This document shows, in pieces, positions 56,138-63,410 of a DNA stretch of 64,000 bases; the first letter of the stretch is position 1; each line of letters opens with the position of its first letter. The stretch lies in NCBI GenBank assembly GCA_947627115.1, contig CANQUQ010000003.1, forward strand, positions 114,710-178,709, in the 5' to 3' direction. This DNA comes from an uncultured Acetatifactor sp. (GTDB lineage Bacteria > Bacillota > Clostridia > Lachnospirales > Lachnospiraceae). The position numbers and the translations under genes were made by a program. Below the pieces are notes generated by a model. The model saw nothing but the letters and a program-made list of their open reading frames with translations. It searched no databases and was not told the origin of the DNA.

Positions 56138-57523
56138 CTAATCTGCCGGCTCCGCGTTCTCACCGATATGGCTGATAATGTTCTTGTTGATCCTGATCAA
56201 AAAGAACGTGCCAAGGCTGAGACTGAACAGCTCCGCTATGGGGAACGACCACCAGATCAGATCCACATTGCCGCTCAGGGAGAACAGATACGCCACCGGA
56301 AGCAGCACGCAGAGCTGTCTGACAATGGAGATGATCATACTGTAAATTCCGTTCCCCAGCGCCTGAAATACGCTTCCCACCACAATACAGTAGCCTGCAA
56401 AGATAAAACTCAGGCAAATGATCCTCAGCGCCGGAATACCGATATCGAGAAGCTCCGGCGGCGCATCGAACAGACGGATCAGCGGCCCCGGAATGAGTTC
56501 CATGACCAATACGCCGATCAGCATAATGCCCACCGCGAATTTTATACTGCTCTTTATCGTATTAATGACTCTGTCACGCTTACCTGCGCCATAGTTGTAA
56601 GCAATGATAGGCACCATACCGTTGTTCAGACCGAACACGGGCATGAAGATAAAGCTCTGCAGTTTAAAATAGATACCAAACACGGTCTGGGCGGAGCCGA
56701 AGGCCTCCAGGATCAGATTCATCCCGTAGGTCATGACGGAACCGATGGCCTGCATGATAATGGACGGAATGCCCACCTGATAGATGCGCAGGATCAGAGC
56801 GCCCACAGGTCTGAAGCCCTTGAAAGAAAGACTCAGTTCCTTATTCTTGGTCAGATTGAACAGAATGGCCAAGGCGGCGGCAATGATCTGTCCCGCCACG
56901 GTCGCGGTGGCCGCTCCCGCAACACCCATGGCCGGAAGGCCGAACAGACCGAAGATCAGAATGGGATCCAGGATCAAATTGATGATGGCGCCTACGCCCT
57001 GCGTGATCATCGCATAAAAGGTCATGCCGGTAGACTGCAGCAGCCGCTCAAAGGTGGTCTGCATGAAAATGCCCACGCCCGCCACACAGCAGATAGTCAG
57101 GTAAGTGGTGCCATACTCCCTCACCTGCGCGATCTGCGTCTGACTGGCATAGAAGGGACCGCTGACAAAAATGCCTATCAGAACAAAGATCAGATAACTG
57201 ACGATCTCAATAAAAATACCGTTCACGGCAATGGTATTTGCTTTCTTGTACTCCTTTTCCCCCAAAGTCTTGGAGAGAAAGGCATTGATACCTACAGCGG
57301 TCCCTCCGGAGACCGCTATCATCAGGGTCTGTATGGGGAACGCAAGAGATACGGCCCGAAGCGCATACTCATTGATCCTGGACACAAAAATACTGTCCAC
57401 AATATTATACATGGCCTGCACCAGCATAGAGATCATCATCGGCAGCGACATGGATATCAAAAGCTTATTTGTAGGCATAATGCCCATTTTGTTTTCCTGG
57501 GGTATTTCCTTTTCGTTCTGCAT
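56138..57523 (-). CDS. MATE family efflux transporter
   Basis: Start reset to MQNEKEIPQENKMGIMPTNKLLISMSLPMMISMLVQAMYNIVDSIFVSRINEYALRAVSLAFPIQ; RBS GGGAGGAAC upstream. Confidence 0.93.
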   Translation of the reverse strand: MQNEKEIPQENKMGIMPTNKLLISMSLPMMISMLVQAMYNIVDSIFVSRINEYALRAVSLAFPIQTLMIAVSGGTAVGINAFLSKTLGEKEYKKANTIAVNGIFIEIVSYLIFVLIGIFVSGPFYASQTQIAQVREYGTTYLTICCVAGVGIFMQTTFERLLQSTGMTFYAMITQGVGAIINLILDPILIFGLFGLPAMGVAGAATATVAGQIIAAALAILFNLTKNKELSLSFKGFRPVGALILRIYQVGIPSIIMQAIGSVMTYGMNLILEAFGSAQTVFGIYFKLQSFIFMPVFGLNNGMVPIIAYNYGAGKRDRVINTIKSSIKFAVGIMLIGVLVMELIPGPLIRLFDAPPELLDIGIPALRIICLSFIFAGYCIVVGSVFQALGNGIYSMIISIVRQLCVLLPVAYLFSLSGNVDLIWWSFPIAELFSLSLGTFFLIRINKNIISHIGENAEPAD

Positions 57524-57531
57524 GAAGTTCC

Positions 57532-57716
57532 TCCCTGCCGGCGCGCACTCCTCTTCTCCGGCGCTGCGCACGCTTCTCCTGGCCGGCATCGCGCACTCCT
57601 TTTCTCCGGCACCGCGCACGCTTCTCCTGGCCGGCGCTGCGCACGCTTCTCCTGGCCGGCATCGCGCACACTCCTCTTCTCCGACGCTGCGCACGCTGCG
57701 TCCGCATTGCCCGCGC
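57532..57716. repeat. GC-rich degenerate tandem repeat upstream of MATE gene
   Basis: Repeated modules of the type ctcctggccggcatcgcgcactcc / tctccggcgctgcgcacgcttctcctggccggc. Confidence 0.8.
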
Positions 57717-57778
57717 AAAAAAAGCCCCTGTGATGAATCACTGGGGCATATCAGCATTCTTTACTGCATTCTGCCGAA

Positions 57779-58933: not shown

Positions 58934-59746
58934 TTATGACCGATATTTTTTGTTCCGGCCGTGCAGCAGCGTCAGGAGGCCGTATGGCAGAAGGATGAGA
59001 GTGCAGCAGCCCACGATAAGGACCGTATACTCCGTGAATTTTGCCGCGCCCTTCAGATAGGAGCCGCCGAGCAGCGGCAGCCCCAGCGTCATGACAAAAT
59101 ACCAAAAGAGCGGAGGTATGAATTTGTGCACAAGGAGCGGAGATAACCGCTCTTTTTCGGCATGGGCCTGTCTTTCCACAAGAGCTCCCGCCAGGCGGTA
59201 AAGGGAGAGCAGCGCCGCAAAATACACCGTAATTCCGATCATGGTGTGAAGTCTGTCCGGTGTCAGCATTCCTTTCATCAGCCCCGCACGCTCCAGATAT
59301 ATGGGAAAGTAAATGGCCGCAATGATCCGCAGACCGTTGACAAGCACGGTATACAGCCAGGAGAAAACAATACTGGCCCCGATCCATCCAAGACCTCTTC
59401 GGAGCCTCCCGAAAGAGCCGGCGGCGTCATTCCCCTGGGGCGCCGCCGCTCTGTGTACGAAGGAAAAGACCAGAGTCGCAATGGCGGTGATCATAAATCT
59501 GACGCCGGAACATGTCGGCGCGATCAGAAGGCGCAGGCTATGATTTACATAGCCTGTGCCTGGTATATAGACAAATGGAATTCCGCTCAAAAGCTCTACC
59601 CACCGGGTCGTGGGCGCTAGGATCCACAGCAGGGAATCACAGTCCGCCCGACTGTAATAAAGCTTGATTCCCAGCACAACAAGGATCCCTGTCAGGTAAA
59701 AGATAAAATTCTGACGCAGGAAAACATACTTTTTCTGTGAAATCAT
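58934..59746 (-). CDS. Exosortase family protein
   Basis: Multi-pass membrane protein with ordered Cys/Arg/His motifs: LLIAPTCSGVRFMITAIATLVF, YTVLVNGLRIIAAIYFPIY, TPDRLHTMIGITVYFAALL. Confidence 0.85.
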   Translation of the reverse strand: MISQKKYVFLRQNFIFYLTGILVVLGIKLYYSRADCDSLLWILAPTTRWVELLSGIPFVYIPGTGYVNHSLRLLIAPTCSGVRFMITAIATLVFSFVHRAAAPQGNDAAGSFGRLRRGLGWIGASIVFSWLYTVLVNGLRIIAAIYFPIYLERAGLMKGMLTPDRLHTMIGITVYFAALLSLYRLAGALVERQAHAEKERLSPLLVHKFIPPLFWYFVMTLGLPLLGGSYLKGAAKFTEYTVLIVGCCTLILLPYGLLTLLHGRNKKYRS

Positions 59747-61806
59747 GATCCGCTCCTCTTATTTTTCCGCCTTTTTCCGATGACAGCAGCGGCAAGGGGC
59801 AGGACCAGCATCAAAAGCTCCGGCTCCGAGTATTTTGAATAGCCGCCGCCCACGGCAAGATTGGATACTCTCTGAGGGAGCGGCAGCGCCTGATCCACAT
59901 CGCTGCTTTCACCGCTCGTGTTCCTGACAGTTTCCGTCACGGCTACAAAAGAGGTATAGGGCGTGACCATATTATATTCCAAGCCCAGCCGGATGATCTC
60001 CTCCTTTACAGAGTCGTCGTTGCGCACACTTCCGTATCCCGCGATTCTGTCCAGATGGGTCCGTGCCCACAAATAGCGCAGCGCTTCGCTTTCCATATCC
60101 ACGGTCACGTTGGCGACGGGAATCTTCTGCGTATACTCCTGACCTCCCGCTTTACCGGTCACCGTGACGGTTCCTTCCGGATCTCCCTTCCATTTGCCGA
60201 ACAATACAATGGGCTGTCTGGCATACAGGATCGACGGGACTGCGGGCTCCACATCATAGACATCAAATCCCTCGTACGATATAGAGATATCCGTGAGCAG
60301 AGGCGCCTCTATATAGGTGCGGAAACGGGCCGCCGCATCCGCCGCATCTTCTTCATCCGTTACAATAAAGGATTCTCCAAGCCCGCACCCGGCAATCTGC
60401 TTGATCAGATAGTCGTTGACAGAAGTGCCGATCCCAAAGGAGAAGAAGTTTGCCTCATCCATGTTGTCACACACATAATCAACAATTTCCCTGTCATTAA
60501 GAACATAACCGTCGGTGACGATCACAACGCTTCTCGCGTAATCCTCCTGCTGCGGTATGGAAACGGCTTTTTCCAGTGCGGGAAGCAGTGAAGTCCCGCC
60601 TCCTCCCTCCAGGCTGTCAATGAGCCTTACGGCTTCTCTTACACTTTTCTTCGAGGCGGGAAGAGAATGCCGGGACAGCGTAGTCACCTCGTTGTCAAAC
60701 AATATCAGATTGAAGGTATCCGTCTCCCGCAGACCGGATACCAGGCCGCGGATCAGATCCTTTGCGGTATCCAGGGGATAACCGCTCATAGAGCCGGATA
60801 TATCCAGCACAAAAATGTATTCGCGGGGCGGTATGTCTTCCGGTTCAAATCTTTCCGGCGGCTGAAGGGTCAGCATAAAGAAATTTTCGTTGCCGGCCCC
60901 TTCGCTTCCCGGCTGCCCGCCGGCAAGCACAAGACCGCTCTGTATTTCCTCACCGGAGAGCCGGTATTTTAAGATAAAGTCCCTGTTTCCGGCGTAATCC
61001 TCCTGATTGGCCAGAGTGATACAGGCATGTCCGGCATCGGATTTCCTGACAACGATCTCATGTGATTTGCTTGTCACTTCGGCAATGGGGACGCCGGTGG
61101 AAAGATTCACCGTGATACTATATTTTCCGGGAGGGGTATCTCCGTCCGGAAGATAAGGGACTTCAGCTCCGTCACTGTCGCCGTCGCTGACAAGGTCGCC
61201 GTCGGACACGGTGGTATCCACATAGCGGGGACCTACAACGGTAGGAAAGACGAACTGGTAAATGCCCTCCTCCGGAGTGATCAGCTGTGTGTAATGCAGC
61301 TCAATGGATATCGTATCTCCGGGCATGATATTGGCAACATCCATTGTGAACATGTTCGGTCTTTTCTGTTCCATCAGGGACGCACTCTTGCCTTCGCTCT
61401 TTGCCTCCTCGTATTCCGCCTTTGCCTCTTCCTTTTCTCTGATCTCAGCGGTTATGACCTCATTGCCGATCGTCATTTTCATCCCGTGGACCGCCACATC
61501 GGATGAGGTGGGAAATACATATCTGGCATTGATCGGCGCTTCACCTTCGTTCGCATAGACCTGCGTCACATAGATCTCGGCGATCATCCCGTTGACATTT
61601 GCCACTACATCGGTAGCTTTCAGAGGAAAGTGTTCGAGAGAAGAAGCATCCTCATCACTGCCCTGAATGATAAAATAGGGGGCCAGCATTTTCTCCTCAT
61701 CCTCGCTCTCCTCTTCCGCCGCATAAGCCTTCGGAGCATATGGAGCGAGCATCAGAAATACCAGCAGACAGCATAGTATTTTTTTCCTTTTTGTCACCGT
61801 TTTCAT
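59743..61806 (-). CDS. Secreted VIT + VWA domain protein with PEP-CTERM-like C-terminal sorting signal
   Basis: Signal peptide KKILCCLLVFLMLAPYAPKAYAAEE; VIT-like ATDVVANVNGMIAEIYVTQVYANEGEAPINARYVFPTSSDVAVHGMKMTIG; VWA YIFVLDISGSMSGYPLDTAKDLIRGLVSGL; tail YSEPELLMLVLPLAAAVIGKRRKNKRSGS. Confidence 0.9.
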   Translation of the reverse strand: MKTVTKRKKILCCLLVFLMLAPYAPKAYAAEEESEDEEKMLAPYFIIQGSDEDASSLEHFPLKATDVVANVNGMIAEIYVTQVYANEGEAPINARYVFPTSSDVAVHGMKMTIGNEVITAEIREKEEAKAEYEEAKSEGKSASLMEQKRPNMFTMDVANIMPGDTISIELHYTQLITPEEGIYQFVFPTVVGPRYVDTTVSDGDLVSDGDSDGAEVPYLPDGDTPPGKYSITVNLSTGVPIAEVTSKSHEIVVRKSDAGHACITLANQEDYAGNRDFILKYRLSGEEIQSGLVLAGGQPGSEGAGNENFFMLTLQPPERFEPEDIPPREYIFVLDISGSMSGYPLDTAKDLIRGLVSGLRETDTFNLILFDNEVTTLSRHSLPASKKSVREAVRLIDSLEGGGGTSLLPALEKAVSIPQQEDYARSVVIVTDGYVLNDREIVDYVCDNMDEANFFSFGIGTSVNDYLIKQIAGCGLGESFIVTDEEDAADAAARFRTYIEAPLLTDISISYEGFDVYDVEPAVPSILYARQPIVLFGKWKGDPEGTVTVTGKAGGQEYTQKIPVANVTVDMESEALRYLWARTHLDRIAGYGSVRNDDSVKEEIIRLGLEYNMVTPYTSFVAVTETVRNTSGESSDVDQALPLPQRVSNLAVGGGYSKYSEPELLMLVLPLAAAVIGKRRKNKRSGS

Positions 61807-61953
61807 TGGGAACCTCCTTGAAATAGCATGAGCTTTCATATTTCATGAGGCATCATAAAATGGCAATGCACAAAAACTGCATCAAATTTTCTATATTTTT
61901 CCATCAAATTTGCGACATTTTTGCATCATAATAATAACGGAGGGTACAAGAAC

Positions 61954-62795: not shown

Positions 62796-63410
62796 ATGAA
62801 AAATCCAAAACTAAGATGCTCAATTTGCTTAATAATATTAACGGCTTTGCTGTCTGCCTGCACGTCACCAACATTTTCAACCGACAAATTTGCTGATTCC
62901 TTACATTCCAATGTTCAACAGGACATGAATTTGCCCGAATCTGAAGATATTACTGAGTCTTCACAAAGCTTAACGAAAGATACCATTAAAGACACTGAAC
63001 GTACCGCTGCCCCCACTCTGGAACCTACGCCGGAACCCACTTTGGCGCCTACGCCGGAGCTCACTTTGGTGCCTACGCCGGAACCCACTTTGGCGCCTAC
63101 GCCGGAGCCCACTCTGGCGCCTACACCGGAGCCTACTCTGGCGCCTACACCGGAGCCCACTCTGGAACCTACACCGGAGCCCACTCTGGCACCTACACCG
63201 GAGCCCACTCTGGAACCTACACCGGAACCCACTCTGGAGTCACAGTCGCAGACTGTTTATATCTTAAATACTAATACTATGAAAATTCACAATACTTGGT
63301 GTCGCTCCGTTAAAAAGATAAAGCCGCAGAATTATAAGGAGACTACGGAAAGTATTGAAGAATTAGAAAAAATAGGATATGTAAAATGTAAGCAAAAAGG
63401 AGATTGGTGA
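62796..63410 (+). CDS. Lipoprotein with (PTPEPTLA)n spacer and C-terminal Cys/His-containing module
   Basis: Lipobox ILTALLSACTSP; repeats PTPEPTLAPTPEPTLE; C-terminus TVYILNTNTMKIHNTWCRSVKKIKPQNYKETTESIEELEKIGYVKCKQKG. Confidence 0.85.
   Translation: MKNPKLRCSICLIILTALLSACTSPTFSTDKFADSLHSNVQQDMNLPESEDITESSQSLTKDTIKDTERTAAPTLEPTPEPTLAPTPELTLVPTPEPTLAPTPEPTLAPTPEPTLAPTPEPTLEPTPEPTLAPTPEPTLEPTPEPTLESQSQTVYILNTNTMKIHNTWCRSVKKIKPQNYKETTESIEELEKIGYVKCKQKGDW
63018..63240 (+). repeat. Tandem repeat encoding PTPEPTL(A/E/V)
   Basis: Repeated cctacgccggaacccactttggcg-type units. Confidence 0.92.

Follow-up and report, generated by a model that had tools for sequence, protein, structure and literature searches.

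An exosortase K enzyme paired with a single VIT-VWA protein in Lachnospiraceae: a probable one-enzyme, one-substrate sorting cassette

Introduction

The best-known exosortase systems serve many substrates and are found in bacteria with an outer membrane. To our knowledge, the acceptor chemistry of bacterial exosortases is largely unsettled. The locus described here lies in a 64,000-nucleotide stretch of DNA (the window) from an uncultured Acetatifactor sp. of the Lachnospiraceae, and raises the question of whether an exosortase can be dedicated to one adjacent substrate in a Gram-positive lineage. The initial annotation had proposed exactly this: a multi-pass enzyme encoded next to a secreted VIT+VWA protein that carries a PEP-CTERM-like tail.

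A one-enzyme, one-substrate Gram-positive cassette with a predicted switch would permit clean tests of cleavage, acceptor and control. Because related genomes hold both genes or neither, the cassette lends itself well to the study of exosortases in the absence of an outer membrane. Further, it extends the set of sorting enzymes known to act on this VIT-VWA body, and the use of several such enzymes suggests that display of the body is of more importance than how it is achieved.

The enzyme and its substrate

The enzyme gene (58934..59746, minus strand) encodes a multi-pass protein of 270 amino acids that belongs to the exosortase K (XrtK) family. In a profile search, it matched the family model TIGR04287 at 100 bits, above the curated cut-off of 55, and the superfamily signature TIGR04178 at 27.5 bits, a margin of 4.5 bits over the cut-off of 23. 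The Pfam exosortase model PF09721 gave no match to the protein, nor to anything else in the genome. The catalytic residues Cys79 (59510-59512), Arg140 (59327-59329) and His167 (59246-59248, all minus strand) stand in the exosortase order already recognised in the initial annotation and are 100% conserved in an alignment of 40 XrtK sequences covering two XrtK groups. Beyond them, the window enzyme has a conserved C-terminal extension (approximately residues 205-265) with the pattern PxFWY...LP. The predicted structure is of moderate confidence (pLDDT 71), and no relative was found in the PDB by sequence or by fold. The source genome, which is 99.6% complete, contains one XrtK copy together with four sortases of the ordinary type.

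The adjacent gene (59743..61806, minus strand) encodes a secreted protein of 687 amino acids with a signal peptide, a VIT domain (Pfam, 120.6 bits), a VWA domain with DxSGS (VWA_3, 74.2 bits) and a C-terminal sorting tail. The longest open reading frame opens at 61839; the right start is ATG 61806, which is preceded at a distance of 6 nt by the Shine-Dalgarno sequence AAGGAGG (61813..61819, minus strand). The stop of this gene and the start of the XrtK gene overlap as ATGA (59743..59746, minus strand), with GAGGAG 5' of the XrtK ATG, and each of the two genes has a Shine-Dalgarno-like sequence ahead of it. The coordinates, strand, overlap and tail are as first described. The overlap, present in the window, is not universal and was found in only 7 of 35 loci; the two genes are probably co-transcribed.

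The body of the VIT-VWA protein resembles the sortase-target family TIGR03788, with 435.1 bits over residues 76-658, which is below the cut-off of 551.65. Its predicted structure (pLDDT 48) is too weak for use. Distant VIT-VWA homologs with 23-33% identity (loci L143-L150) from other Clostridia have no sorting tail, and hence are not substrates lacking an enzyme.

The sorting tail

The C-terminal sorting signal (59746..59844, minus strand) consists of GGYSKYSEP, with the SEP codons at 59821-59829, followed by a hydrophobic helix and then a cluster of basic residues; with one more G in front (GGGYSKYSEP), the end of the protein reads ...GGGYSKYSEPELLMLVLPLAAAVIGKRRKNKRSGS. Among 24 aligned tails, E and P are invariant, while the residue before them is S in nearly all and otherwise A or P. 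The motif had originally been given as SEPE. The SEP-type motif is real, but the conserved part is xEP, mostly SEP, and the fourth residue is variable. In all 35 of the 35 tails, xEP lies 23-37 residues from the C-terminus and is followed by a hydrophobic stretch and a net charge of +3 to +7.

A profile of the tail gave one strong match per genome (E 3e-17 to 4e-11) in 25 XrtK genomes, with an extra match in one genome (G519) that is a decayed second copy. The next-best matches in these genomes had E values of 0.02 or worse and lacked the motif. Judged from the sequences, the tail is not due to chance, given the invariant EP, the consistent layout and the single strong match per genome. A separate script run over 1.99 Mb of the source genome returned two more endings with EP, helix and basic residues, which look like portions of unrelated proteins, and, by strict criteria, no LPXTG tail. 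The VIT-VWA protein was the sole protein found by the tail-profile search to carry a strong sorting tail of the XrtK type in its genome.

Pairing and distribution

XrtK is sparsely distributed: it was found in 27 of 138 genus genomes, and in 6/397, 6/392 and 4/399 genomes of the family, class and phylum samples, respectively; the named relatives are Lachnospiraceae and related Clostridia. A search of the genus for the VIT-VWA protein returned exactly the same 27 of 138 genomes. There are about 10^28.6 ways of drawing 27 genomes from 138, a figure that is not a p-value because the genomes are related. Both genes are present at 35 loci (two of them duplicates), always on the same strand with the substrate first. 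They are adjacent in nearly all genomes and mostly spaced within 160 bp. The flanking genes mostly differ between loci, and no conserved third gene, including an acceptor gene, was found beside the pair among the loci compared. On the evidence of gene content and order, the two genes form a single unit of inheritance. The profile matches, the co-occurrence and the tail scan together bear out the proposal that, in this Gram-positive lineage, an enzyme of the exosortase family serves a single VIT-VWA substrate encoded beside it.

Some loci depart from this arrangement. At L075, XrtK adjoins another gene, and the VIT-VWA gene with its tail lies on a separate short contig of the same genome. At L066 (6829-7581), a truncated XrtK remnant has lost its Cys half and has no VIT-VWA gene nearby; none is known on any other contig for this locus. 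XrtK homologs lacking the VIT-VWA partner were limited to this remnant and to a second, MSEP-type group of XrtKs (see below). Separately, L138:5931-6853 is a decayed second VIT-VWA copy without XrtK that has kept its SEP tail and lost its middle; the genes beside it may be recombinase-like.

Relation to known sorting systems

The closest known system is the pair of XrtK and MSEP-CTERM (TIGR04287/TIGR04286), which shares with the window pair the enzyme family, the Cys/Arg/His residues and a single adjacent target with xEP, helix and basic residues. The other XrtKs found (L046, L047, L049, L135, L136 and L137, from the class and phylum samples) are 162-194 amino acids long, and their genes precede that of a protein of ~900 amino acids. 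The three targets tested (at L046, L047 and L049) are MSEP-CTERM proteins by TIGR04286, with 719-870 bits, and their tails contain DEPPLE, DEPAIL and SEPGLI. In contrast to the window pair, the MSEP-type enzyme lacks the C-terminal extension and is encoded ahead of its target, which is ~900 amino acids long and has an N-terminal hydrophobic part. The MSEP-type partner shows a weak VIT match, and the VIT-VWA protein gave no match to TIGR04286 up to E 1. The VIT-VWA-paired XrtKs form one clade (FastTree support 0.81 on a 0-1 scale), and residues P212, W215, Y216, L221 and P224 of the extension are common to this clade and absent from other XrtKs.

VIT-VWA proteins are likewise familiar as sorting substrates. 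The same body with GlyGly-CTERM, LPXTG and PEP-CTERM tails was described in 2011, the LPXTG forms lying beside a dedicated sortase (PMC3237569), and in Verrucomicrobium spinosum the form with a PEP-CTERM tail has an exosortase as its sorting enzyme (PMC3237569, Fig. 3C). The system of target TIGR03788 and sortase TIGR03784 has, like the window pair, a VIT-VWA body as single target beside its sorting enzyme. However, it uses an LPXTG tail and a true sortase, termed strictly Gram-negative (PMC3237569), whereas the window pair uses a SEP tail and an exosortase. The GlyGly-CTERM and PEP-CTERM forms of VIT-VWA proteins (PMC3237569) similarly illustrate one body with exchangeable sorting tails, but their hosts are outer-membrane bacteria, and not Lachnospiraceae with an XrtK-type enzyme. 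PEP-CTERM/EpsH systems share the tripartite tail with an EP motif; they belong to bacteria with outer membranes and exopolysaccharide genes, unlike the window lineage, and none was found in Firmicutes in a 2006 survey (PMC1569441).

Hence, XrtK with another dedicated target (MSEP-CTERM) is already known, as are VIT-VWA proteins as targets of sortases, rhombosortases and exosortases. What is new is the combination of an extended XrtK clade, a reversed gene order, a VIT-VWA body of the sortase-target type and a Lachnospiraceae host. The novelty of the general theme had been overstated, because NCBIfam already includes the XrtK and MSEP-CTERM families and dedicated sorting enzymes for VIT-VWA proteins were on record in 2011 (PMC3237569). 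The terms 'Exosortase K' and 'MSEP-CTERM' received no mention in the literature searched, which did not cover the 2012 survey of exosortase families; the window variant may have been noted already in that survey.

The upstream repeat array

Upstream of the VIT-VWA gene, direct repeats of 11 bp form an operator-like array, TGATGCANNNN (TGATGCA; 61862..61930, minus strand), which ends just 5' of TATGAT (61852-61857) and does not figure in the initial annotation. TGATG units spaced 11, 22 or 44 bp precede the VIT-VWA start in 28 of 32 distinct loci, an array of this type being absent from the other 4. As a background, 125 short gaps elsewhere in the same loci included 2 of 11 bp and 0 of 22 bp. 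A repeat matrix built without the window was scanned over 1.99 Mb, equal to 69% of the source genome. The window array scored 41.8, one other site 40.0 and the next 24.4, and the shuffled maximum was 17.1. The second site (contig C7, L230:13612, plus strand) comes after an operon encoding a Response_reg+Trans_reg_C regulator (L230:10672-11322) and a HisKA kinase; it is followed in turn by an Amidase_3+Polysacc_deac_1 gene. In two related genomes (L072:4709 and L073:685, minus strand), a second array-like match in the opposite orientation lies close to the VIT-VWA array, which suggests that a divergent neighbour may share control.

For ArcA, of the OmpR/PhoB family, the sites described consist of three to five direct repeats spaced by 11 or 22 bp (PMC3798270). 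The window array, with several direct repeats at these spacings, is an OmpR/PhoB-box-like candidate operator. Given a single additional site within the 69% of one genome that was scanned, we infer control of the VIT-VWA/XrtK pair by the C7 regulator. It is quite conceivable, although we lean against it, that the array is read by another regulator family or another OmpR-type system, and that the C7 two-component system and the amidase gene beside the second site are irrelevant to the pair; this would concern the regulation only. Direct repeats are used by other families too, LytTR among them (PMC6193735), the C7 link depends on just one other site in part of one genome, and that site overlaps a terminator-like hairpin. 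However, three to five short repeats with an 11-bp period are the OmpR/PhoB pattern (PMC3798270), the direct-repeat sites described for LytTR are two 9-bp repeats with ~12 bp between them (PMC6193735), and the C7 site lies directly 3' of an OmpR-type operon.

Proposed mechanism and alternatives

We consider it likely that the two genes form a dedicated sorting cassette in which one substrate is cleaved, transferred to an acceptor and displayed under the control of a regulatory switch. Judging by the sequence, the signal peptide would direct export of the VIT-VWA protein and the SEP-helix-basic tail would keep it in the membrane; XrtK, in the same membrane, would recognise the xEP motif. By homology with archaeosortase A, Cys79 with Arg140 and His167 would cut near xEP and hold the protein as a thioester, which an amine-bearing envelope acceptor would resolve, leaving the VIT-VWA body displayed outside. 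An OmpR/PhoB-type response regulator would probably switch the pair through the 11-bp array, and the peptidoglycan amidase/deacetylase gene may be under the same switch.

Archaeosortase A with PGF-CTERM offers a mechanistic model of Cys-based tail processing, in which an ethanolamine lipid serves as acceptor (PMC7157517). Its proposed acceptor is archaetidylethanolamine, whereas the route to an ethanolamine lipid through phosphatidylserine (PS) decarboxylase is not required in the window genome. PS decarboxylase is absent from this 99.6% complete genome, and all pssA matches fall short of the cut-off and carry no information. Within the genus, the decarboxylase is present in 10/27 genomes with XrtK vs 42/111 without, its presence being unrelated to XrtK. 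Since phosphatidylethanolamine is usually made by this decarboxylase, which a nearly complete genome does without, the acceptor need not be this lipid, and an ethanolamine-lipid acceptor is unsupported. A more specific and rather doubtful version of the cassette would have the VIT-VWA protein joined to a Gram-positive acceptor other than phosphatidylethanolamine, possibly linked to peptidoglycan, under a wall-remodelling two-component regulon, as an exosortase-based counterpart of sortases where sortases already exist.

The same observations could be read as hydrolysis only, with XrtK removing the tail and releasing the VIT-VWA protein from the membrane, attached to nothing. The search for acceptor pathways yielded none that varies together with XrtK, PS decarboxylase included, and an acceptor gene is not conserved beside the pair. 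We nevertheless regard this as unlikely, since related enzymes are believed to pass their substrates on to an acceptor (PMC7157517; PMC11980579) and an envelope molecule common to all cells, which needs no special gene, may fill this role. It is more improbable still, and by a clear step, that the tail merely anchors the protein in the membrane in the ordinary way and that XrtK modifies or chaperones the VIT-VWA protein without cleavage. A tail of this kind could by itself anchor a protein, but an invariant EP ahead of a variable helix, an invariant catalytic triad and the perfect co-occurrence of enzyme and substrate in 27 genomes all argue against this reading.

Other features of the window

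Two further repeats were seen in the window. A lipoprotein-like open reading frame (62796-63410, plus strand) contains a 24-bp tandem repeat of 9.4 copies that encodes units of the TPEPTLAP type. GC-rich tandem repeats of 25, 48 and 73 bp (57541-57697) lie over the 5' end of a transporter-like multi-pass open reading frame (56138-57757, minus strand), the true start of which is probably downstream of these repeats.
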